Source: Saxidomus purpurata
Taxonomy: Eukaryota > Mollusca > Bivalvia > Venerida > Veneridae
Assembly: GCA_022818135.1 (NCBI GenBank)
Contig: JAFMSR010000012.1
Location: 8,476,492 to 8,540,491, forward strand
Direction of reading: 5' to 3'
Length of the DNA: 64,000 nt
Shown here: one piece after another, positions 4,426 through 23,808 of the stretch
Numbering within the stretch: the first letter of the stretch is position 1
Layout: each line of letters opens with the position of its first letter
Notes under the pieces: generated by a model
Databases searched by the model: none
The model's input: only the letters and a program-made list of their open reading frames with translations
Told to the model about the DNA's origin: nothing
Program-made: the position numbers and the translations under genes

Positions 4426-4689
4426 AGCGTATTTCAAGTACAAACGCTTTAATCCACAGAGCAGAAGATCATAATACGAGTCAGTTTATTATAATTGAAA
4501 CAAGCGCGCACGAAACTTGAATGTTTACAATTTCAATGTCAAGGTCGAATTATTCAAAAAACGGAAAGGTACATTATGAAGCGGAATGAATAACATCAAA
4601 TTTCAAGCCAAATAAACAATCGTACATACTGGTACGAGGGCAATTACTGAAAATAAAAGGCTTACAAGCAGTGATTAATTAGCGTGAAA

Positions 4690-6335: not shown

Positions 6336-8010
6336 CTAAAAAAATCTGTTATATCTATATTTTAAGATAATGGCTAATACAGGCAACAATGACTCGCCTA
6401 TCTCAACCTGTCTGCATTTAGATTTCTTAAGTATTATTGCCGCTGACATTATAAACAAGGTATATAATATTTTAGCATTTACCANNNNNNNNNNNNNNNN
6501 NNNNNNNNNNNNNNNNNNNNNNNNNNNNNNNNNNNNNNNNNNNNNNNNNNNNNNNNNNNNNNNNNNNNNNNNNNNNNNNNNNNNNNNNNNNNNNNNNNNN
6601 NNNNNNNNNNNNNNNNNNNNNNNNNNNNNNNNNNNNNNNNNNNNNNNNNNNNNNNNNNNNNNNNNNNNNNNNNNNNNNNNNNNNNNNNNNNNNNNNNNNN
6701 NNNNNNNNNNNNNNNNNNNNNNNNNNNNNNNNNNNNNNNNNNNNNNNNNNNNNNNNNNNNNNNNNNNNNNNNNNNNNNNNNNNNNNNNNNNNNNNNNNNN
6801 NNNNNNNNNNNNNNNNNNNNNNNNNNNNNNNNNNNNNNNNNNNNNNNNNNNNNNNNNNNNNNNNNNNNNNNNNNNNNNNNNNNNNNNNNNNNNNNNNNNN
6901 NNNNNNNNNNNNNNNNNNNNNNNNNNNNNNNNNNNNNNNNNNNNNNNNNNNNNNNNNNNNNNNNNNNNNNNNNNNNNNNNNNNNATATCTTGTGCTACTT
7001 CTTTTGGTGGATCTAACAGAGTTTTTTCCGTAATGGCTACTAATTCTAATTTTAAAAGTTTTGTTTCAAATATTTTCCTTTCTTCAGAATATAGTGGGCA
7101 GTGAAACATTAGATGGCTAAAATTTTCTATTTCGTTACAATGTTGACAGTTTTTGTCGTCTACATATCGGTCCCCTTTTAAATAGCTACTTTTAAGTTTA
7201 AGTCTACTATACATTGTGTCTATTTTTCTAAGATGATGGTACGTTTGTAATTTACTAGGCGGTTTAATATTAATTTCTATGTTATGTGTTGAGCAATATT
7301 TTCCCATTGCTTTAGACATTTTTGTGTAACTTTATCTTTAATGATGCTGTAGACTTCCGGTATGCTGAGCTTAATTGGAATTTCTGTACCAGAGGTGCTG
7401 CCGTATTTGGCATTGTCGTCTGCTATTTCATTTCCGTTTATGCCTACATGACTAGGTACCCACATTAATTGAATTTCGTCCCCTCTATGCTTTATGGCTG
7501 TGACGGACTTTAAAATACTGTAAATCATTTCTTGCCTATGAGACTGACCCGATTTTATTGCTAATAAGGAACTCAGACTATCGCTTATAATGACCGCTTT
7601 TGGAATATAGTTTTCTTTGCAATAACATATTGCATAATCTATTGCTGCTAACTCACATGTAAATATTGAAGTTTGATGGTTAAGTTTTAGACTCTTGTTA
7701 TGTAGAATTATGCCGTCTTCTGCTATAACTACTATGCCCGTCCCTGCTATTTGTTTGGACGGGTCTTTACTACCGTCTGTATAAATTTGAGTAAAGTCTC
7801 TAAAGTGTCGAATAATGTTTAAATTTGCAATAATTTTGTTTCTTCCGTTATCTCCTGCTTTGTTAATTTTCCCAACTAAATCTAGGTTAATCTCAGGCAT
7901 TTCAATATTGATAAGTTGTTCGTAGCACGGTTCTTGAATTTGGATTTCGCCAGCAGGCTGTTTCTGCTCTGTATTTATACACTTCTGAGATGTACCATGT
8001 GATTGTCTTG
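6336..8010 (-). pseudogene. 5'-truncated non-LTR retrotransposon remnant: RNase H and C-terminal region
   Basis: The ORF at 7277-7900 encodes an RNase H domain with all four catalytic acidic residues: D42 (YTDGS), E83 (FTCELAAI), D107 (IISDS) and D161 (NEIADD), plus H151 in WVPSHVG. Upstream in-frame codons continue to about 8010 and then lose homology, with no reverse transcriptase, so the copy is 5' truncated. Around 7280-7319 the frame shifts into a second ORF with KLQTYHHLRKIDTMYSRLKL and a C.HC-x-C-like segment (CQHCNEIENFSHLMFHC). This is the usual tail after RNase H in I/Jockey-type LINEs. That second frame runs into the 500-N gap. An in-frame tail is visible beyond the gap on the left contig at 6336-6484. 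Confidence 0.75.
6485..6984. other. Assembly gap of exactly 500 N
   Basis: There are 500 consecutive N from 6485 to 6984. A round gap size is typical of scaffolding joins where true distance is unknown. It lies within the LINE remnant and separates the contig holding the left inverted arm from the contig holding everything else in the window. Confidence 0.98.
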
Positions 8011-9945
8011 TCCAATCAAAATGCTAGTTTAACAGTGACTATGTGATTAGTCCCTGAACAAATTCAATTATTGAACAGTTCTACTTATAGCTCATGGGGA
8101 GCTCAAAGCTGTTTTCTTAATTAAATTCATCAAGCTACGTTCTGCACTAAAAATAGTGACATAATATAAGAAACTCATAAATGGCGCCCTGCCTTTTCAG
8201 CATAATGTTGGAATACAAGACAAAAATCCCATTATTCTTATGTGGAAACATAAAAGTAGTTACATAATGAATACAAAACAATACAGTAAACAGCCTAACA
8301 ACGGTACCTGAAGGGGTTCTTTCTTAATATTTTTACATGAATAATGTACTCTGAAAGTTTAAAGTAGAAAAACTCAAGATTCACAAATGGCCACCGTCAT
8401 TTTTGACGAAAAAGTAGTTCCCATCTTCCTGACCTAAATAAACTTATGAATGAAACTCAAACAACATTCCCAGATCAGGTTCCCCTATATTGACAATAAA
8501 CAACTGTCCAGGGAACAGAAATGCAGAGAACACTATCTCTGTTGCTGATAATTTTATACCTCTAACTAACAACAATAAGAAGGAACATTATACAAGTACA
8601 GGTGGACTTATTAGTGTTAATTAACAATTGGATTTAAATGCTTTTTATCTTTGACTGTGTCCACCAAGTTAAATGAGACTGCATATGAAAGGTATGTTCA
8701 AACATTTTTGCAATTTTATAAAGCACTTTGACTTTTACCTTACAATATTTGCAAATATTCTATTATTTATTCTTACGAAGTTAACTGAATCCACACCTGT
8801 TTTAGGGAGTGCCTCTCTAAGAATCAAAGCGCTGTGAGCGCTGAAGGCCTGGGGGCTATAGGTTAACTCCCCGAAAAACAACTTTTCACCTACGTGTTCT
8901 GCGTTGAATCTTACCTAAAGCGCGGGTCGAAATGTGCAGAGGACGAAATTCAATATATGACACAGAATGAATGATTCACAAATATATGGGTGACAGGGAA
9001 GTTTGTTTTATTATGAAATGTACGTTAAATGAAAAATAATCACATAGTCAACATTATAAAATGTTTAAGCCAGTACAAATAATTCGATCTGCGTTTTGTA
9101 CAACTTCAAGCGATATGATCTGATGATGTGGATCGAAAATTATTGTGTACCAATGACAAGACCTTGAAACAGAAATAAACAAAGCAATACCAGCAATGAA
9201 ATATAAATACAGTACTGTACAATGTGTATAACAGAGAAAACCAAAAATGATTCTGGGTTACCTTGTAGTTGTAATCAGTGAAACCGTTCACTGGGCCTCG
9301 ACATGCAGCGTCCTCGATAAATGGCGGGTGAATTTGATCACGTTAGTTCCTTCTCGGGAATGTACGTAAATTATATCTTTTTTTAGAGACATTTATTTTT
9401 AGGTAAATATATATGTTATCGTTCAGTAAATAACAAAGTTGTCAATGAAATAACATCGGAAATTTGAAAATCAAACTACAAACTCTTATATCGAAGCCAG
9501 ACGTTTTCCGTAAATTTCCGTAAATATCCGTACTTTTCCGTGATATGTATATGATTATCTTCCCTAATCAGCTAACAGCGCATTAATTTCTAAAACAGAA
9601 AAAAATGTGTAATGCAGCCCGTAAGCTATATACCTTCCTGCAGTCGTTTGAAGTTTTATGTACTATTTTTATTTGTAACATGTTCTTATCATATGCGGCA
9701 TTCAAACAGAAGATTGATCTGGTCTGTCTTGCACTACTTTCGCATAGCGCATGTTTACAGTTGTTATTCGCACATAGCACGGCTAAAATTCTTGCAGGGT
9801 TTGAAATGTGGTATACTAACTTAGGCCTTGGGGACTTTCAGTCCCCAGGCCAAAAACTAGACCTATCACTAAATGTGATTAATACCCCCAACAGACTGCT
9901 TCTTTAGGTATAAGATGCCTAAATACATTTCCATAGACTTACATT
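8011..9945. other. No gene recognised
   Basis: AT-rich non-coding sequence. The only structure I see is a GC-rich hairpin at about 9823-9852 (GCCTTGGGGAC, short loop, GTCCCCAGGC) and clustered TTCCGTAA words near 9490-9540. Short ORFs near 9605-9907 overlap the hairpin and resemble no family. Confidence 0.5.
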
Positions 9946-10361
9946 ACAAGGGTTTCTTACAGTGCGACTACCCAAAATCTCACCGACTGCTGAAATGAAC
10001 TTTATTTTGTAGAATCATCCTAGTCCCACATAAAAATAACAAAATTTATACATGTGATCCAATACTTTATGCCAGTAATTTGGAGCTCAATGACACCACC
10101 CCCATATTTGTGGCAGTAGAAGTGATCACCGACTAAATATGTCAGTATTTTCAAATATCAAATATTTTAATTATAATTTCTATCCAGATTTTTCTCTTCA
10201 TATTTCATTTGTGATCTATCATGCAGTGATTATTTCAAACTAATTTTTCTTGTATGCATCCACTTAGTTTCAGCCAATCAGCAATCAAACACATAGTGTA
10301 GGTCCGCATGTTCCTTAGACAAAATAACCTGCTTCGGGTTTTCACCGATATAGGCGTCTCA
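9946..10361 (+). repeat. Intact copy of a ~415 bp dispersed repeat
   Basis: The unit runs from AAGGGTTTCTTACAGTGCG to GGCGTCTCATAC. Its first third recurs at 11975-12106 and its remainder at 20180-20467. In this copy the two parts are directly joined (..ATGCCAGT then AATTTGGAG..), which gives the empty-site sequence for the 8-kb insertion in the other copy. I see no coding capacity and no clear terminal repeats. Confidence 0.85.
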
Positions 10362-11974: not shown

Positions 11975-12106
11975 TATAAGGGTTTCTTACAGTGCGACTA
12001 CCCAAAATCTCACCGACTGCTTAAATGAACTTTATTTTGTAGAATCATCCTAGTCCCACATAAAAATAACAAAATTTATACATGTGATCCAATACTTTAT
12101 GCCAGT
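11975..12106 (+). repeat. First part of an interrupted 415-bp repeat (left half)
   Basis: Nearly identical to the first ~130 bases of the intact unit at 9946-10361. It stops exactly after ATGCCAGT, where the 8-kb element begins. The rest resumes at 20180. Confidence 0.9.
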
Positions 12107-12866
12107 CATCCCCAACTATTTTAACCATCGTGTATTGGAAAACCGGCATGCGTTTTTACATAGAGTAAAGAAGGGTTTTATTAAATAACTCGTCATAACT
12201 TTCTTTCTGTTTAAAATACAAAATTTGTCATTATCACAATTGTTAATTTTATTTCTCTTCCATTTCATGAATATTTTTTTGTCAATGTAAAGTATTAAAT
12301 CAATGGTCCTTTTTACGTTTAAAAACTATCACTGTCCATTTTTACGGGCATTGAATTATAGTAGAAACGCGAAACAATGCCAGTTTCGATTCCAATTTTG
12401 CATTTTGATTCTAATTTTCAGCTTTTTGCTATTTCAACGAAAAAATGTCACTATTACAATGTCTTGATATTTCCTTTTCCTTTTTAGATATATAAAAATT
12501 ATGATGTTGAATTCACATCTTTGCAGTCCTTTCTAACTTTTACTCAACTGACTTATAATTTTTTAATAAGAATTTACCGTTTCGGCAATACTCGGCAATT
12601 TACGTAAGACACATGTTTGCCTTATATCACGAGTATACCTGTGTTTAGTAATTCGATCAACATGAATGACTTTTATTCATAAATATTACCAGGGCATAAC
12701 TTTTAGAAGAATTTTAGAAAAATATATATTTGCATTATAATATTAAACTGATAGTTACGTTATAAAAGTTGTTAAATCAAACAAAGCCCGTTTGATCGGA
12801 TGGCACCTAGATGTGTATATCGCACCTCTATATTGAGGGGTAAGAGGGGTAGGGTGGTGTCCTCAA

Positions 12867-12882
12867 GACAGACATGTCTGTC
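12867..12882. other. Perfect 16-bp palindrome
   Basis: GACAGACATGTCTGTC is its own reverse complement and lies about 760 bp inside the left end of the 8-kb element. It contains AGACATGTCT, the form of a p53-family half-site. It could equally be a dimeric protein site used by the element, or chance. Confidence 0.4.
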
Positions 12883-14149
12883 ATCAGGTAATAATACTTT
12901 TTCAGTGTATATTGTCAATGCATGTCACATACTGAAATAACAGAAGACTGGCGTCATGGCGTCATGAGCTCTTCAACAACGCATTTTTTGTTTGTTCTTT
13001 CATTCGTCAAGGAAGAATCTACATGAAGACATATCGTACAAGTCATATATGTAAGTATGAAAATAATTGAATAGTTTTTAAATATCTTCATTCAATATGC
13101 TTGTAATCGGACACTAGTTACACTATATAAGGAAAAATCCCCGTGCAATAACAGTTGTGTTTACAATGTTTTTCAGAAAGGAACTTTTGAAATTTTATAA
13201 CTCTAATTTTTTTGCTATCTGAAGGATTTTAAAATTTAAAAAGTTATGAAATGCTGTTGATACTCAAATTTTAGTATTAAAATATCTCTTTTGGAAAAAA
13301 ACATCTTTAATGACACTTGATTTTTCATAACGGCTTGTTGCTGCTATAACCATTTACGAAAACAGTGTTAGTTACTCCCTTGCGCAATTTGAATCTTAAC
13401 AATAATGGAAAATAATGAATAAAGTGTATATTTTATTAGCTTTCTAGTGATATGAAACATTTTTAAATATCTTTTGTTTTAATAAAAGTTACGGCCGTTA
13501 AAAAAGACACCTCTATCAATACAAGAACACAGACTACCGACCGCTGCCCATCGCATTGATCTCTTATCAGAAGAAAATATTGCGTAATTCAAGGTTTTGT
13601 TTGCAAACACGATCTCTCCCATAGGCGTAAAACTTAGGAGATATTTTTTGTTACAAAATTAATTATTCATTTTTTCCCCACCTTTAAAATAATCATTATT
13701 CATCAGGTTTTTTAAGCAAGTCAGTTCAAACATAATGTATTCAACATTGTATAAAACATTATGTCTCTGTAACACCCCCGTCCCCCACCCCCATCATACC
13801 GTTCTTGATCATAATGACCGGATAAATATTAATGAATATAGTGTTATATGTACATGTTGTATCTTGTGTACCTGAGTGAAAATGAAAGAGATGTTCTGAT
13901 TCACCTGCTCGAAATCTAAATTTCTAATGTCTGTTTGCAATTTAGCGTTAAACCCCAAACATCATAATAAAATAGATTTTAAAAAAAAGAGAAATAAATC
14001 ATGACATTGTATTTATTCAAATTCGTACATTTATAAGCGGGTCACTCCGATGAAATTATTATCAATAGACAAATTACTGTGAAAAACATCATAAGTTAAT
14101 CAAAATCTTTGTTTATCTTCATCTACAATGTCCACATATCTAATAACAC

Positions 14150-14626
14150 TTATATTTGTTGCATGGTACATGCTTCTGTACATGAATATATCATGCAGCG
14201 TTCCATTGGCAAACACTTCTTCAATAGTCTTTCACCTTCGCGAACAAATACTGTGCGCACGTGTAATCTTGGCGTCAAGCGAACGGGGAATTTCAATTTA
14301 ATTCCAGTACCATCACTATTTAGGCGGTAATACCAGTCATCTGATAGATTTAAGACCTTAAAATCGTCAAGTGTACACAACTTCTGTTCAGTACCAAAGC
14401 ATGATCGAAAAACATCCAAGTCAACAAAGATAACTGATTTTGGATTTTTTGACTTTAATCGTGCCTGCATTGTCCGTTCAAGAGCGCGTGCAAATTGCTC
14501 TTTCCTGCATTGGTCAATTGTAGGCGAACAGTACTCATTAACCAAGTGGTCCGGTATATGACTTTCTGGCTCCCATGTGCAGTCGTATGCGTGAAACCCT
14601 TTCCAGTTAACCAAATATTGGTTTCT
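14150..14626 (-). CDS. Chromodomain protein, exon 2 (element-encoded)
   Basis: On the minus strand the exon opens after a pyrimidine-rich tract ending TTTTTTTCAG (acceptor at 14627-14628). It begins RNQYLVNWKGF..YDCTWEPESHI, the second half of a chromodomain with its aromatic Trp residues. About 110 further residues follow, without a domain I recognise, ending at a stop near 14150. Joined to exon 1 at the GTAAGT donor, the spacing between Y-F-V-E and Y-L-V-N-W is 13 residues, exactly as in HP1/CBX chromodomains. Chromodomains bind methylated histone tails; in mobile elements they can steer integration to or from heterochromatin. Here it is a separate protein, not fused to the transposase-like gene, which lies divergently about 1.7 kb away. 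Confidence 0.75.
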   Translation of the reverse strand, partial: RNQYLVNWKGFHAYDCTWEPESHIPDHLVNEYCSPTIDQCRKEQFARALERTMQARLKSKNPKSVIFVDLDVFRSCFGTEQKLCTLDDFKVLNLSDDWYYRLNSDGTGIKLKFPVRLTPRLHVRTVFVREGERLLKKCLPMERCMIYSCTEACTMQQI

Positions 14627-14862
14627 CTGAAAAAAATCAACAGGAAAAAACATGTTAGTATGTTTGGACGTAAACTAAACTTAGTGAACATGACTGTTCA
14701 TTTCTACGGCAAGTTTTAAATATAAAGCAATGAAAGTGCCACAAATACTCTTGATATACATATCTAGTTTATATCGGTAAAAATGCAGCAGTGCAACATA
14801 CAAATGCATTGTCTCTTAATTGTAGTACTTTTATAATTTTGTAAAATATGAAGGGAACTTAC

Positions 14863-15029
14863 ATTTTGGTCTTTCTTTCTCCACACAAGACGTTCAACGA
14901 AATAATCCTGATCAAGAACTACCATTGGATCTTGGCAGCAGTCTTTTGGTAACGGATATCTAGCATTTCACCTTCATGAAGTACTTTGTAGTCAATTTGT
15001 TTACGTTTTCTAAGACTGGTGGCCATCAT
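14863..15029 (-). CDS. Chromodomain protein, exon 1 with a frameshift
   Basis: The exon starts at an ATG at 15029 (minus strand; a second ATG follows at once) and reads MMATSLRKRKQIDYKVLHEGE. The frame is then lost. Another frame continues ..RYPLPKDCCQDPMVVLDQ and ends DYFVERLVWRKKDQN before a consensus GTAAGT donor (14862 downwards). The last part is the first strand of a chromodomain and completes the domain with exon 2. The 236-bp intron spans 14627-14862. A single-base change near 14960 between the two frames is either a sequencing indel or a disabling mutation. The basic N-terminus could be a nuclear localisation signal. Confidence 0.65.
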
Positions 15030-15610
15030 TAACGTTATATCGTGTGTTTTAACTGCTTGATGTCACTTATTAAAATGAATATCGAACTAACCTCTATGCA
15101 CTTGACAAAAGTAAGATGATTATGTGAAAAGAAAATTATTTCAGCTCAAACTAATATCTGTTTGATCTGCCCCGTTCGTAAAATTATGTAGAAACAAACT
15201 GATAATGATCCATACAATGCTTAATTGTCGCAATTGCCAGTTAAAATAAACAATTATCACTTGATTTGTTTTCATAGTACCGGTATATAGAATCTGAAGA
15301 TAAAAATGTTGTACATTTCCTTATTGCAAAACCATTTCTTATACAAACATTTTTTTCGCTCAGTCATTATTTCGATTAGAAATATATTATGTAACGCCAA
15401 ATTAAATTTAATATTTTGTGAATCGTTTATTGACTTGCTACAGCGCAGTATTTTTGAATGAAGAAAGACAACTTTTTTTCCGTGAATAAAAGTCTTAAAC
15501 ATGAAAAAAAGTACAGAATATCTTCTGCATCTTCTTTCCAACATATGCGTGTATTATGTAAATTATTATTTAGTAATAAATACTCGAGACTAAATGATTT
15601 GTGTATAATA

Positions 15611-16102
15611 TCGGTCAGCAAAAAAAAATAATCTTTAAACTTATACGATGTTAAAGTGGATCCGTTTTATTACCCTTAATCATTTTATTACATGTATCTT
15701 ACTAGCATATTGCCCGCGGATAGAATGATTTCCCGTGTGTGTTTTACGGACATGCGTTCTTTTCATTGTACAATTTCGGTCAGCAAAAAAAAAAATCTTT
15801 AAACTTATACGATGTTAAAGTGGATCCGTTTTATTACCCTTAATCATTTTATTACATGTATCTTACTAGCATATTGCCCGCGGATAGAATGATTTCCCGT
15901 GTGTGTTTTACGGACATGCGTTCTTTTCATTGTATAATATCGGTCAGCAAAAAAAAAATCTTTTAACTTATACTATGTTAAAGTGGATCCGTTTTATTAC
16001 CCTTAATCATTTTATTACATGTATCTTACTAGCATATTGCCCGCGGATAGAATGATTTCCCGTGTGTGTTTTACGGACATACCTTCTTTTCATTGTATAA
16101 TA
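15611..16102. repeat. Three ~164 bp tandem repeats between the two divergent genes
   Basis: Three units of 165, 164 and 163 bases start at 15611, 15776 and 15940, each with TCGGTCAGCAAAAA. They differ at only a few positions. Each holds GTGGATCCGTTTTATTACCC and TTGCCCGCGGATAGAATG. A strongly diverged further unit is detectable to about 16330 (ATTGCCTGCGGGTAAAGCG). The position, between a minus-strand gene starting at 15029 and a plus-strand gene starting at 16749, suggests a bidirectional promoter, an enhancer, or binding sites for the element's own protein. Confidence 0.9.
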
Positions 16103-16604
16103 TCAGTCAGCTTAAAAAAACTTTTACCGTACATAACATTTCTATGAGAAGAATGATCTTAACTTGTTTATGTGTTAATAAGTATTAGCAAATACATGTT
16201 TCATAGATAAAGGGTAAATGGACAAACTTAATCTAAATATTTTGAACCGAAAAATCTTAATTTTATTACCTCTCCCTAATCAGGATATTGCCTGCGGGTA
16301 AAGCGATATCCGGCGAGTGTGTTTTATTGCATATTATTGTAATAGTTTTTAAAAAATATTTTAACATACCTGACGGTGTACATAACATTTATACAAGAGT
16401 TTAATTTATCAAATTATATACTTTAGCGAGTGTTATCAAATTTGCAGTTTCATGACGTATCAATACAATGACCGTGTTTTTTATCCGCCATATTTTTGAT
16501 AAATTACATATAGCAGCGATTTATTATGAAGTATAATGAATACCAGATGAACAAAATTTTGAATGTGTGTAAAATATGAAGATTTGTTCATTCATTGATT
16601 TTAC

Positions 16605-16748
16605 TGTTGTTTCAGACTTCCACATCGGCGACAATCAAGAAAAACTACATAAACGTTGAGGGTTTGAATCCTGGGCACGTATACGTGAAGCTAATTAATC
16701 ATGTGCTAATGAACTGTGACTGCAATAGCTGAAAGTCCAGTTATCAAA
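16605..16748 (+). promoter_or_regulatory. Possible 5' leader with splice acceptor of the transposase-like gene
   Basis: TTTTACTGTTGTTTCAG ending near 16615 is a good splice acceptor and would start an exon about 135 bases before the ATG at 16749. This suggests a non-coding first exon further upstream, perhaps within or beside the tandem repeats. No matching donor could be fixed by eye. Confidence 0.3.
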
Positions 16749-18981
16749 ATGGCAACACAAAGTACACCGGTTAAACAAGTGAACATATCTATTTGTGCAT
16801 CTCCGGCTGAACCAAACGATCAAGTATCACTGACATTAACAAATAAGTTTCTACGAAGGTGTACAGCTCAAATTATCAATGAAATAAACTCCAGCTTAAA
16901 ACATATCCAACTTAGACAAACGGAAAATTTAGAAAATCGTCTAGTAGTAGCATCGAGGTTGAGCTCGTCTGGTTATAAGAAAATATCTGGTGGCAACAAT
17001 AAACTTAAATTTGACAATAAAGTGAGAGTAATTGCACTGACTGAACATGATCTTTGTGATGTTTCGTCCCCAGCTTCAGAGACCACGCCTGTATGTACAC
17101 CAAACACTGGAGTAAGAGTTGACAATGCCTCATACACACACAGAAAGAGAATAATAAAAAAACTTGAACAAAACACATCCAAAGCCCTTGATTTTGTTGA
17201 ATCCTTTGGCGTCATACCGAAGAAATTAGTTTGTGAATCATTTGACGGCAAAGACTGTACAATTAAATTGAATGAAATCCATAACACTGCTACAAGCTAT
17301 GAAAATATGACATCTATGAAAAAAATTGAAGTACAAGAATTGTTGCAAGTTTGTGATCAGTCCATGATCTCTGACTCGGCGTATCATGAGCTAGCTATGC
17401 GCGTGCCTGACCTTCCGCGGAAATCTCACTTGGTAGCATGCAGAAATGAGATGAATTCGGAATACGACGTGAAAAGAACGCCTGGTATGCTTCCGGGATC
17501 GTACATCAGCATTCGTGAAGAAATAGTCGGTGACGTCAAATATCTTCTCGGAAAAGGGCAAACGATTAATGAGTCGCTACAAATAAAGGTATCCGGGGAC
17601 GGTACAAAAGTCAGCCGCGTGTCAAACTTTGTGAACGTTTCATATTCCTATGTAACAGAAAACCTGCAATCCCATGTTAAACAGAGAATGTTAGCAATCG
17701 TCAACTGTGAGGAGAAATTCGAAAATTTTAAAAAACATCACTCGCACCATTACAGAACGAGATTGACGAGCTAAACAGTTCCGGGGAAATCACAGTCGGT
17801 CAGAAAAACATCAAAATAGAGGTATTCGTCGGCGGCGACATGAAATTTCTTCAATTACTTCTAGGTCTCAATGGAAGTTTAGGAGTATATGCATGTCCCT
17901 GGTGCAAAGTTCCAAAAGAAGAAAGAGGAAACGTCTCCTATCCAGAAAATCATTACCATGAACCCGGCATGTTCCGTACGGTGGCTGAACTAAACAGCTT
18001 GTCGAAGAAAGGTGTAAAACCGAATTACGGGGTTAAAGCTGCGCCACTGCTGAATGTTGAACCAACACACTACATACCTGATGAACTCCATCTTTTGATG
18101 CGAATAACGGACATTCTTTTGCGCAATTTGATTTATCATGCCAAATCAAAAGATGAGTATGCAAAACTGACAGGGCATGCAACTGACAATCTACAGCTAC
18201 TAATTGAAGCCATCCAGTCATGTGGGGTTACGTTTAAAACGTGGGTTACAGCGACAGGTGAACTTGATTGGACTTCACTCACCGGAGTTGACAAGAAGAA
18301 ACTTCTCAATAAGTTGCCACAAAAGCTGCTATTTTTCATTTCACACGGATACACATGACTACGTTGTGAATCTGTGGAACGAATTCAGTGCACTGTATTC
18401 TCATGCGTGCACGGGTGAAAATACAGAATCATTATTTAATGAACCTAGGAGGTTCATAGAACAATTCATACAACTAGGGCAAATGAAAAGGGAAGGCTAC
18501 CAACCCAAGAATGTGACTCCATACATGCATGCACTTATATACCACGTGCCGTACTTCGTGAAGAACTATGGTGGCTTGAGGAAGTTCTCCGGTCAGAACG
18601 TGGAAAAAGTGAACGACATAATAAAGATGGTCCACCAAACAAAATCGAACAAGCACGACCCTACGCGAGACGCACTACTTGTTAGAAAGAGGCTTGAAAT
18701 TACAGCACGAGAAAATGAAGGTAGAGTTAAACGTAAATATGAAAAGACCGATCAGAGTTACTGGAATGGCGGGATTCATCAACTCAGGCAAAAGAAAAGG
18801 GCAAACATTGCAGAAGAACTTAGGACTGTTCATGAAAGTTTCCACAGTACCGCAAATAGTGTACAAGTTGATCTTGAATCATTATCTGTTCAACAACTCA
18901 AAGAAAAGTTAGTATCATGTGGTGTAAAAACCAAGTTAAGAAAAAAGGAAAAATTGATAGACCTTTTGCTGGAATCAATGT
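16749..18981 (+). pseudogene. Putative DDE-type transposase with C-terminal SAP domain, two frameshifts
   Basis: Three frames join into one protein of about 740 residues. Frame one (ATG 16749 to about 17735) includes SGDGTKVSR, with a candidate first catalytic Asp at 17598. A shift at an A-run near 17730 leads into a frame reading IEVFVGGDMKFLQLLLGLNG (second Asp at 17837). That frame also has a CPWCK zinc-type pair (17894-17905) and PDELHLLMRITD (Asp 18080, His 18089). A second shift near a T-run at about 18330 leads to HALIYHVPYF..N..G and VEKVND, with a candidate Glu at 18603. The C-terminus (about 18870-18978) is a SAP-like DNA-binding motif, SLSVQQLKEKL..G.KTKLRKKEKLIDLL. The order D-D-CxxC-DxxH-E resembles CMC/EnSpm and KDZ transposases; that assignment is inferred. 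Both shifts sit at homopolymers, so they may be sequencing errors rather than real breaks. The GTG at 16716 in the same frame is not a likely eukaryotic start. Confidence 0.65.
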
Positions 18982-19114
18982 GAAATGACTTTAGCAGATG
19001 AAATAAACCCAAAGAAGTGTAAAAATATCTTACATTTATATTTATGTTGCTATTAATGCTATTGGACACAAAACTCTTATTAGAAACATTCTTTTAAAAT
19101 TGATATATCATTCA

Positions 19115-19870
19115 ATTTTTAGCCATCAGTCAGGATCTTATTCTTTTATAAGAGCAATATTTGTGGTTTTCAAGATCAGTTTTTTAATTGTTATAAGTCA
19201 GAGTCTCCGCAATGTATTTATAGTTTATATAATTTTATAAAAATAAATTTATGTTTTAATATTGATGAGCAATACGTAACAAGCTGTGAAATGCATAATT
19301 ACAGCAATAATTGTGTAAATCGTATTGCTAAAGGCAAGATATTTGCGAATAAAGAATGAATGCATTGTTACGGAAAAATATTGTCATTTATAAATGTACA
19401 AAAAAACGTAGTGAAATATGATTGAAATATAACAATATCATTTAGCCGTCGGTCATGATCCTCTTCTTTTATCATATTTGAAATTTCCAAGATCAGTTTT
19501 TTTTAAAAACTGTTATAAGTCAGAGCGACTGCATTGTTTTCATTGTTTTCATAGTTTATTTGTTTACTTAATTTATAAAAAGAAAAAAAGGTGTGAAAAG
19601 CATAATTACAGCAATACTTGTGTTAATTGTTTTGCTAGATTGCAAGATATTTGCCGAATTGCAAATAAAGAATAAATGAACTGTTATTTACAAGATACGG
19701 ATAAAACGTTTGAATATTGATAACCCATACTTAACAAGCTGTGAAATGAATAATTACATAAATACCTGCGTTTATCGTTATTGTCAAGAGACGGATAGAA
19801 ATATTGTCATTTATAAATGTACAATGACACGAATTCATTTATGATTGAAATATAACAATATTAAATGTTA
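19115..19870 (+). repeat. Degenerate ~300-bp direct repeats in the right arm of the 8-kb element
   Basis: Two long and one partial diverged units follow the transposase-like gene. Shared landmarks are CAAGATCAGTTTTTT with GTTATAAGTCAGAG (19169 and 19490 regions), AACAAGCTGTGAAATG (19279, 19735) and ATTGTCATTTATAAATGTAC (19380, 19805). They are non-coding and AT-rich, and may be subterminal protein-binding repeats. Confidence 0.7.
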
Positions 19871-20179
19871 TTGAAATATATGATGTTGTTACTTTAGTTT
19901 ACTATGTAGTCTGATTTATTTGAAATATTGAACTGTAGGAGATTATCGGTTTTGATCAACATAAGAAAGCTACAGTTGCCCCTACTGAATCAAAATATCG
20001 ATTTTCTCCCGTTTGACTGATTTAGTTACACATGACTGGTTTTATGGCCCTGTAAACCACACATTCTCGCAGATAGCAATACACGAAGGGTAACTCGGGA
20101 GATACAGTGAAAAAACATGAAATTGACTTAATTCCCTTGATTTTAAAGATATTGGTCGTGGTCATTAATGTTGGCCATG

Positions 20180-20467
20180 AATTTGGAGCTCAATGACACC
20201 ACCCCCATTTTTGTGGCAGTTGTAGTGGTCACCGACCAAATATGTCAGTATTTTCAAATATCAAATATTTTAATTATAATTTCTATCCAGATTTTTCTCT
20301 TCATATTTCATTTGTGATCTATCATGCAGCGATTATTTCAAACTAATTTTTCTTGTATGCATCCACTTAGTTTCAGCCAATCAGCAATCAAACACATAGT
20401 GTAGGTCCGCATGTTCCCTAGACAAAATAACCTGCTTCCGGTTTTCACCGATATAGGCGTCTCATAC
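20180..20467 (+). repeat. Second part of the interrupted 415-bp repeat
   Basis: Matches bases 10076-10361 of the intact unit with a few substitutions, starting precisely at AATTTGGAGCTC after the right end of the 8-kb element. Confidence 0.9.
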
Positions 20468-22605: not shown

Positions 22606-23808
22606 AATGATCAGCCCCCCCCGCACCCCCCCCCCACCGGGGCAAGGTCAATTTTGACCCAAGGGGCATAATTTGAACAAACTTTGAAGAGGTCTACTAG
22701 GAAATGCTACATGCCAAATATCTAAGCTCTAGGCCTTGTGGTTTCAGAGAAACAGATTTTTAAAGTTTTTGCTACATAAGCCTATGTAAAACTAAGTGAT
22801 CCCCGGTGCGAGGTCAATTTTGACCCTTGGGTCATAATTTGAACAATCTTGGTAGAGGTCCACTAGCCAATGCTACATGCCAAATATCTAAGCTCTAGGC
22901 CTTGTGGTTTCAAAGAAGAAGATTTTTAAAGTTTTTGCTATATAAGCCTATGTAAAACTAAGTGATCCCCGTGCGGGGTCAATTTTGATCCAAGGGTCAT
23001 AATTTGAACAATATTGGTAGAAGTCCACTAGCCAATGCTACCTGCCAAATATCTAAGCTCTAAGCCTTGTGGTTTCAGAGAAGAAGATTTTTAAAGTTTT
23101 TCCTACATAAGCCTATGTAAAACTAAGTGACCCCCCGTGCGGGGTCAATTTTGATCCGGGGGTAATAATTTGAACAATCTTTGTAGAGGTACTCTAGGCA
23201 ATGCTACATGCCAAATAACTAAGCTCTAGGCCTTGTGGTTTCAGAGAAGAAGATTTTTAAAGTTTTTCCTATATATTCCTATGCAAAACTAAGTGACCAT
23301 CCCCGCAGGGTCAATTTTGACCCGGGGGTCATAATTTGAACAATCTTGGTAGAGGTCCACTAGCCAATGCTACATGCCAAATATCTAAGCTCTAGGCATT
23401 GTGGTTTCAGAGAAGAAGATTTTTTAAATTTTTTCCTATATATTCCTATGCAAAACTAAGTGACCACCCCCGCGGGGTCAATTTTGACCCTGGGGTCATA
23501 ATTTGAACAATCTTGGTAGAGGTCCACTAGACAATGCTACATGCCAAATATCTAAGCTCTAGGCCTTGTGGTTTCAGAGAAGATTTTTAAAGTTTTTCCT
23601 ATTTGTTGCCATAGCAACCAGAGTTCTGCATGGAATGGAATTCTTTGAACAATTTTGGTAGAGCTTCATGCAAGGAACATTCCTGCATAGTTTTATCAAC
23701 ATTGGCCTAGAGGTTTCAGAGGAGATGTCATTTGAATCAAAATGTTGACGGACGACGGACAATCATCGATCAGAAAAGCTCACCCTGGCATAGCCAGGTG
23801 AGCTAAAA
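22606..23808 (+). mobile_element. HINE-like element with five to six ~165-180 bp core repeats, 5' truncated
   Basis: The core unit recurs at roughly 22640, 22810, 22980, 23140, 23310 and 23470, with GGTCAATTTTGACCC, CATAATTTGAACAATC and CTAAGCTCTAGGCCTTGTGG. After a non-repeated segment there is a GACGGACGACGGAC microsatellite and a 3' hairpin AGCTCACCCTGGC-ATA-GCCAGGTGAGCT, then AAAAA. The expected 5' hairpin is missing and replaced by a C-rich run. Related full copies lie at 45650 and 46873. Confidence 0.8.

Follow-up and report, generated by a model that had tools for sequence, protein, structure and literature searches.

The 64,000-nucleotide stretch of the Saxidomus purpurata genome analysed here (contig JAFMSR010000012.1, positions 8,476,492 to 8,540,491, forward strand; hereafter the window) carries an 8073-bp mobile element at positions 12107-20179. 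This element is probably a cut-and-paste DNA transposon that couples a transposase of the RAG1/Transib fold to a divergently oriented chromodomain partner gene, inserts with a 0-bp stagger and mobilises a family of short copies in trans. Its ends are exact, its inverted termini are of the CA..TG type, its transposase resembles RAG1 in fold and motifs, its insertions carry no target-site duplication beyond chance, and its gene neighbourhood recurs elsewhere in the genome. The element, its termini and the target repeat are located as follows.

12107..20179, no strand assigned: the complete 8073-bp element with termini 5'-CAT...ATG-3' and without target-site duplication (from the empty site and copy ends)
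12107..12132, plus strand: left terminal inverted repeat CATCCCCAACTATTTTAACCATCGTG, first ten bases identical in 25/27 copies
20154..20179, minus strand: right terminal inverted repeat, reverse complement CATGGCCAACATTAATGACCACGACC, 14/26 match to the left one
11975..12106, plus strand: left half of the interrupted target repeat (window alignment)
20180..20467, plus strand: right half of the interrupted target repeat (window alignment)
9945..10361, plus strand: uninterrupted copy of the target repeat, the empty site (window alignment and genome search)

The window alignment shows a flush insertion into an abundant repeat. The initial annotation, which was made from the letters of the window, had described a repeat split exactly by the block, with an intact neighbouring copy as the empty site, and the realignment bears this out: the repeat at 9945-10361 can be aligned to a fusion of 11975-12106 with 20180-20467; the two differ by ten substitutions, and the junction CCAGT|AATTT is free of gaps. 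A search of this one genome (1.135 Gb, 4232 contigs) returned 1838 first-look candidates for the target repeat, and all 39 other scored copies run continuously across the junction at 95-99% identity; the empty site is therefore not one lucky paralogue. The reverse history, in which the 8 kb are the original sequence and the intact repeat is a deletion derivative, has practically no probability. No support for it was found, the block is absent from all of those 39 copies, which rules deletion out, and its edges are the termini of a dispersed family. On several contigs (C876, C1:70.6 Mb, C1329), the abundant unit to which the target repeat belongs forms arrays that repeat about every 2.13 kb.

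Both edges of the block recur with single-base precision in dispersed copies. With the left query (12107-13200), 39/39 other scored copies start exactly at 12107 (best 40 of 605 first-look candidates), and with the right query (19000-20179), which matched other copies over its last 177-192 bp, 38/38 of these finish at 20179 to the base (best 40 of 370 candidates). The end lists comprise the best 40 candidates, which biases them towards intact ends. A closer relative on contig C14, which matches in three pieces and was set apart from the right-end count, stops at 20177, two bases short. Exact starts and ends shared by dispersed copies mark both edges as genuine termini of the element; copies that stop at unrelated positions, which the initial annotation would have read as the mark of a chance composite, were not seen among the best 40 candidates for either end. 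The related inverted ends it had pointed out are likewise confirmed. The left terminus CATCCCCAAC and the right terminus GTTGGCCATG match in inverted orientation at 8/10 bases (P 0.0009 against random 10-mer pairs from the window) and over 26 bases at 14 positions (P 0.0046). Twenty further right ends were read; in the inward direction right termini are CATGGCCAAC or CATGGGGAAC. CA..TG termini are present in 27/27 copies with both ends read, one right end being TTTG and thus still TG-final. The interval 12107-20179 is one transposable element with these ends and with both genes inside.

An abundant family of shorter copies in this genome shares the ends of the element; they measure about 3.1-4.4 kb where both ends could be placed. 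In the short copy L088, the left end matches that of the 8-kb element for 508 bp (89%) and the right end for 186 bp (81%), and some fragments match as well. It holds no frame longer than 93 aa, and a Pfam scan of its seven frames of at least 60 aa gave two weak matches below the cut-off and nothing else. With L088 as the query, 39/39 other left ends start at its first base, while 33/39 other right ends reach its last base and six stop 2-4 bases short (best 40 candidates each). Near the right end the median pairwise identity of short copies is 97% (20 copies), and two of these 20, whose right flanks are unrelated, show two gap columns but not a single substitution across the 351 columns compared. 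The short copies are thus young, and the near-identity of some with unrelated flanks shows that activity is recent; an assay of it may be feasible. In the short copies, CCCC stands beside both outer trinucleotides when the plus strand is read (CAT-CCCC-AAC ... GTT-CCCC-ATG). These four bases form a direct and not an inverted repeat, although the ends around them are inverted; in the window copy they read CCCC and GGCC.

The CCCC at both ends of short copies had suggested that insertion might duplicate these 4 bp of a fixed target, CATCCCCATG. This candidate was ruled out, since the empty site in the window contains neither CATCCCC nor GGCCATG; it is also countered by the near constancy of CATCCCC among copies with unrelated flanks.

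Target-site duplication and target preference were assessed in 27 copies with both ends and flanks read, i.e. the window copy and 26 short copies. Eleven short copies were fetched first, with right ends obtained by pattern scan in four and by BLAST in four more, and three were dropped; the other 18 are those common to both best-40 end lists. For one of these, C7:39468965, the right-end match was incomplete and was extended by four bases. Exact direct repeats of at least 3 bp flank 1/27 copies, against a mean of 0.96 when right flanks are shuffled among copies, and a duplication of exactly 2 bp occurs in none of the 27. The constant target duplication that the initial annotation proposed to look for is thus not present beyond chance. 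Within 12 bp of the element no position exceeds the 95% limit of random draws for base preference in these 27 copies (the base at -1 is A in 5/27, the base at +1 is T in 6/27). Two further empty sites occur among the retrieved sequences. A copy on contig C9 has a flush junction against an uninterrupted relative (L030), and a copy on C1 is flush against three related stretches (L036, L029, L041); two more alignments, to distant window repeats, were left out as too gapped at the junction.

Insertion without duplication could also arise by end-joining capture, with an excised linear element caught at random double-strand breaks and no 0-bp strand transfer at all. RAG-type enzymes leave blunt signal ends that cells can re-join, and the lack of a significant target preference among the 27 copies fits such a route. 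End joining usually trims ends, whereas the empty site in the window lost no target base and the copy ends are intact to the base, even if picking by similarity favours intact ends. We regard end-joining capture as improbable and a 0-bp-stagger transposition as the better account.

The transposase is a single feature.

16749..18983, plus strand: RAG1/Transib-like DDE transposase, 743 aa read across two single-base frameshifts, apparently one exon

Its sequence shows a putative D-D-E triad, the motifs C(2)C (ACPWC in the window protein) and H(4)H (HALIYH there), and a weak C-terminal SAP-like region. Columns C395 and C398 of the homologue P0026 are invariant in the alignment. A profile of 36 homologues matches RAG1 in PDB, and with a structure model of P0026 only RAG1, RAG-like and Transib enzymes were matched at E<=0.001, at about 16% identity to RAG1 across the structural alignment. 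On this modelled fold the transposase belongs to the RAG1/Transib fold group. Of the label "DDE-SAP transposase" given previously, the transposase gene stands, with its two frameshifts in the window copy, and its fold can now be named; the SAP part fared less well, as the domain scores E 0.02 in the window protein and E<=0.1 in 3/36 homologues, the best of them still below the Pfam cut-off.

The transposase family extends to coral (P0045) and more distant sources, and one homologue bears a label that we take to be a sponge's, on the label only. P0026 is filed under a metagenome-assembled genome of Candidatus Thiodiazotropha taylori, on a 16-kb contig, and probably represents DNA of a lucinid clam, presumably the host of this bacterium, in a symbiont assembly. 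In the alignment, P0047 and P0048 stop short of the SAP-like region at the C-terminus. For P0037, a homologue from Mytilus coruscus, an N-terminus resembling a chromodomain was considered and found unsupported (BLAST E 4.5, no Chromo match). Within the S. purpurata genome, C28:582824-584461 holds a diverged copy whose identity to P0026 is 43% and whose frame stays open, free of stops, for 554 aa; one search for the ends of its family did not find them and returned only a dispersed repeat of about 510 bp. Scans of the viral_contigs and genome_contigs collections, whose scope does not extend to eukaryotic contigs with context, gave no relative.

The partner gene lies on the opposite strand in two exons.

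14863..14925, minus strand: chromodomain gene exon 1, from Met MVVLDQDYFVERLVW, GT donor after 14863
14150..14626, minus strand: chromodomain gene exon 2, AG acceptor before 14626; remainder of the chromodomain and a Cys-containing C-terminal domain of ~100 aa

The two genes are thus present head-to-head, as first annotated. Splicing at GT-AG borders yields a partner of 179 aa, and once the exons are joined the Pfam Chromo match, which covers profile positions 3-50 of 53, climbs from 36 to 46.6 bits (curated cut-off 25.1). An alternative longer start at 15026 needs a frame change. Chromo was the only Pfam family to score in the partner. Six homologues from sources other than this genome are 49-60% identical, and their C-terminal ~100 aa are conserved with 31 invariant columns, four of them cysteines. 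The positions that we take, from HP1, to be those of the aromatic cage are occupied by Y, W and F, which makes binding of methyl-lysine by the chromodomain plausible as far as the residues go. Neither kelch nor PHD domains were found in the block's 11 frames of at least 80 aa and several shorter ones, a scan that a gene of many short exons could escape.

The association of the two genes is not confined to the window. Four partner-transposase pairs lie within 10 kb of each other, against 0.0099 expected for 20 partner and 28 transposase loci under random placement. The partner loci were condensed from 33 chromodomain high-scoring segment pairs, leaving out one second piece of a locus and 12 mainly chromodomain-only matches; the transposase loci result from manual grouping of such pairs. 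The pair on C19 is divergent as in the window (C12), that at C1:14.07 Mb is on the same strand, where the partner precedes the transposase start region by about 200 bp, and that at C2:48.65 Mb is on the same strand by its coordinates alone. At these three loci the partner is 39-53% identical to that of the window.

Genes and ends are linked as well. Transposase and right-end sequence occur in order on C14 (88% for the transposase part together with the final 477 bp) and on C5 (about 75%), left-half sequence (element 1104-1516) lies upstream of a transposase copy on C10, and on C16 the left end is kept through element base 1628. Taken together, these four loci argue that the 8-kb block is one element and not a chance composite. 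A different reading would assign the ends to a non-RAG-like 3.1-4.4 kb family moved by some other transposase, with the two-gene cassette nested or captured inside it. It could draw on the limited sequence, described above, that L088 has in common with the element, and on C16, the nearest copy with a long left part, where neither gene is found in 9.7 kb. The order preserved on C14, C5 and C10 opposes it, as do the CA..TG termini, which are those of the RAG1-fold clade; moreover, no other transposase or Rep/helicase domain was detected in the block's 11 stop-to-stop frames of at least 80 aa or in the seven L088 frames of at least 60 aa. We therefore consider this reading very improbable and retain that of a single element with its own transposase and ends.

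Several observations weigh against our interpretation. The window transposase is interrupted by frameshifts at an A run near 17736 and a T run near 18333, and in comparison with C14, the closest copy, it shows weak codon-position bias (39/33/57). A copy in which both genes are intact was not found in this genome, and homology of the C14 copy does not set in until element base 4508, past the partner gene. The model of the partner C-terminus has a mean predicted local distance difference test score (pLDDT) of 63.9 and matched nothing in PDB at E<=0.001, a result of little weight given the weak model. The duplication-free copies are short ones in 26/27 cases, with ends about 80-89% identical to the 8-kb element, and up to eight bases from the junction the sequence of the filled C1 copy is one base shorter than that of its relatives; a one-base loss at insertion is possible there. 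Finally, 24/28 transposase loci have no partner within 20 kb and 16/20 partner loci are unpaired, and the layout varies, being divergent at C12 and C19 and same-strand at C1 and C2.

These last two points would suit a one-component RAG1-like transposon in which some elements carry the chromodomain gene as a passenger or as cargo derived from the host, dispensable for movement; in ten 17-kb regions fetched around other transposase loci, the partner was present in two (C19, C1) and undetected in eight, and the four pairs differ in gene order and strand. Many of the unpaired loci are fragments or contain stops, though, and pairing recurs at four diverged loci while partner relatives outside this genome remain conserved, a pattern better explained by long joint inheritance than by repeated capture. 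Cargo status of the chromodomain gene thus seems unlikely to us, though it is the alternative we take most seriously. Single-gene copies, which the initial annotation had named as grounds to give up the element, do exist in number. Of its proposal of a new two-component transposon, the single two-gene element is supported, and a two-component system in the biochemical sense would follow from the scheme below.

In this scheme, the transposase would pair both ends and cut at the outer CA, and both 3' ends would be joined to directly opposite target phosphates, with a 0-bp stagger and little sequence preference. A 0-bp stagger leaves no gap to be filled and hence no duplication. The partner chromodomain might bind a methylated histone tail while the C-terminal domain contacts the transposase or DNA, steering or licensing transposition in a role comparable to that of the RAG2 PHD finger. 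The 3.1-4.4 kb copies would be non-autonomous derivatives mobilised in trans, as their shared ends suggest.

Two repeat features lie within the element.

15602..16126, no strand assigned: a ~164-bp unit in about three tandem copies, in the interval that separates the divergent genes, with related sequence once in the short copy L088
19118..19861, no strand assigned: degenerate direct repeats of about 270 bp downstream of the transposase (repeat analysis of the window)

Just outside the element, window positions 22637-23600 hold a tandem array of about five copies of a ~166-bp unit. A frame with an RNase H domain (PF00075, E 4.6e-12) at 7277-8023 on the minus strand, probably a retrotransposon end, lies about 300 bases away from an N gap of 500 bases (6485-6984).

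Transib is a single-gene element; our element shares with it (HzTransib) the RAG1/Transib fold, judged from the P0026 model, and differs by the absence of a 5-bp duplication. Helitrons insert at A^T. No such site is evident here from the first-position flank bases, and the scanned frames contain no Rep or helicase Pfam domain, so a Helitron identity was rejected. Insertions by RAG and by Transib are described as producing 5-bp duplications (PMC7204232; for Transib also PMC4411706).

Spy, of the PHIS superfamily, is described as a cut-and-paste transposon without target-site duplication, for which blunt ends and non-staggered joining have been proposed (PMC11304231). The lack of a duplication is common to both. 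Spy differs in its transposase group, its AAA^TTT target and its one reading frame, whereas our element has no significant target preference; target and protein thus rule out a Spy identity.

The CMCT clade, whose listed members include ESTA, Plavaka, Lanisha, EnSpm, Mirage, Chapaev and Transib, is described as having C(2)C and H(3-4)H motifs between the second D and the last E, mostly 5'-CA..TG-3' termini and target-site duplications of 2-5 bp; ESTA was likewise recognised through its RAG1 likeness, and some fungal members carry a TET/JBP gene (PMC12730594, Kojima 2025). The element agrees with this clade in its C(2)C and H(4)H motifs and its CA..TG termini. It departs from it in having no 2-5 bp duplication, with duplications at chance level and flush empty sites, and it carries a chromodomain gene where the fungal members carry TET/JBP.

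RAGL elements, found in invertebrates including bivalves, are described with a kelch-PHD RAG2L gene, convergent gene order and 5-bp duplications (PMC7204232). With RAGL/ProtoRAG and the RAG1-RAG2 locus the element has in common a RAG1-fold transposase, the C-C-H-H motif, termini starting with CA and two genes, the second of which encodes a histone-reader-type domain. In contrast to RAGL, this partner is a small chromodomain protein and not a kelch-PHD RAG2L, the genes are divergent or on the same strand and not convergent, and a 5-bp duplication is lacking. The ends read CATCCCC and CATGGCC or CATGGGG, with no CAC heptamer resembling a recombination signal sequence, and are not CACTWMCAAAC. 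Gene order is not a strict criterion for RAGL, since the bat-star RAGL element has head-to-head genes (PMC4411706).

Shared motifs and CA..TG termini combined with a missing duplication point to a RAG1-related lineage that would lie, pending a tree, outside the named superfamilies, judged from fold and profile comparison and, for the superfamilies, from their descriptions. No RAG1-like or CMCT transposon with a chromodomain gene was found among the open-access PMC titles and abstract openings listed by the literature searches, a scope that does not take in Repbase, where a family may have been deposited. We would give even chances to the broader proposition that bivalves, coral and (by the presumed label) sponge harbour an undescribed RAG1-fold superfamily whose zero stagger and chromodomain reader represent a second, independent RAG1/RAG2-type design.

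V(D)J recombination derives from a RAG1-fold transposon with a chromatin-reading partner. If the present reading is true, a separate RAG1-fold lineage with a different reader would point to more than one origin of such coupling, and its purpose would become testable. Likewise, zero-stagger insertion by a RAG1-fold enzyme, if true, would be a mechanistic novelty and would provide a natural comparison for the determinants of stagger.

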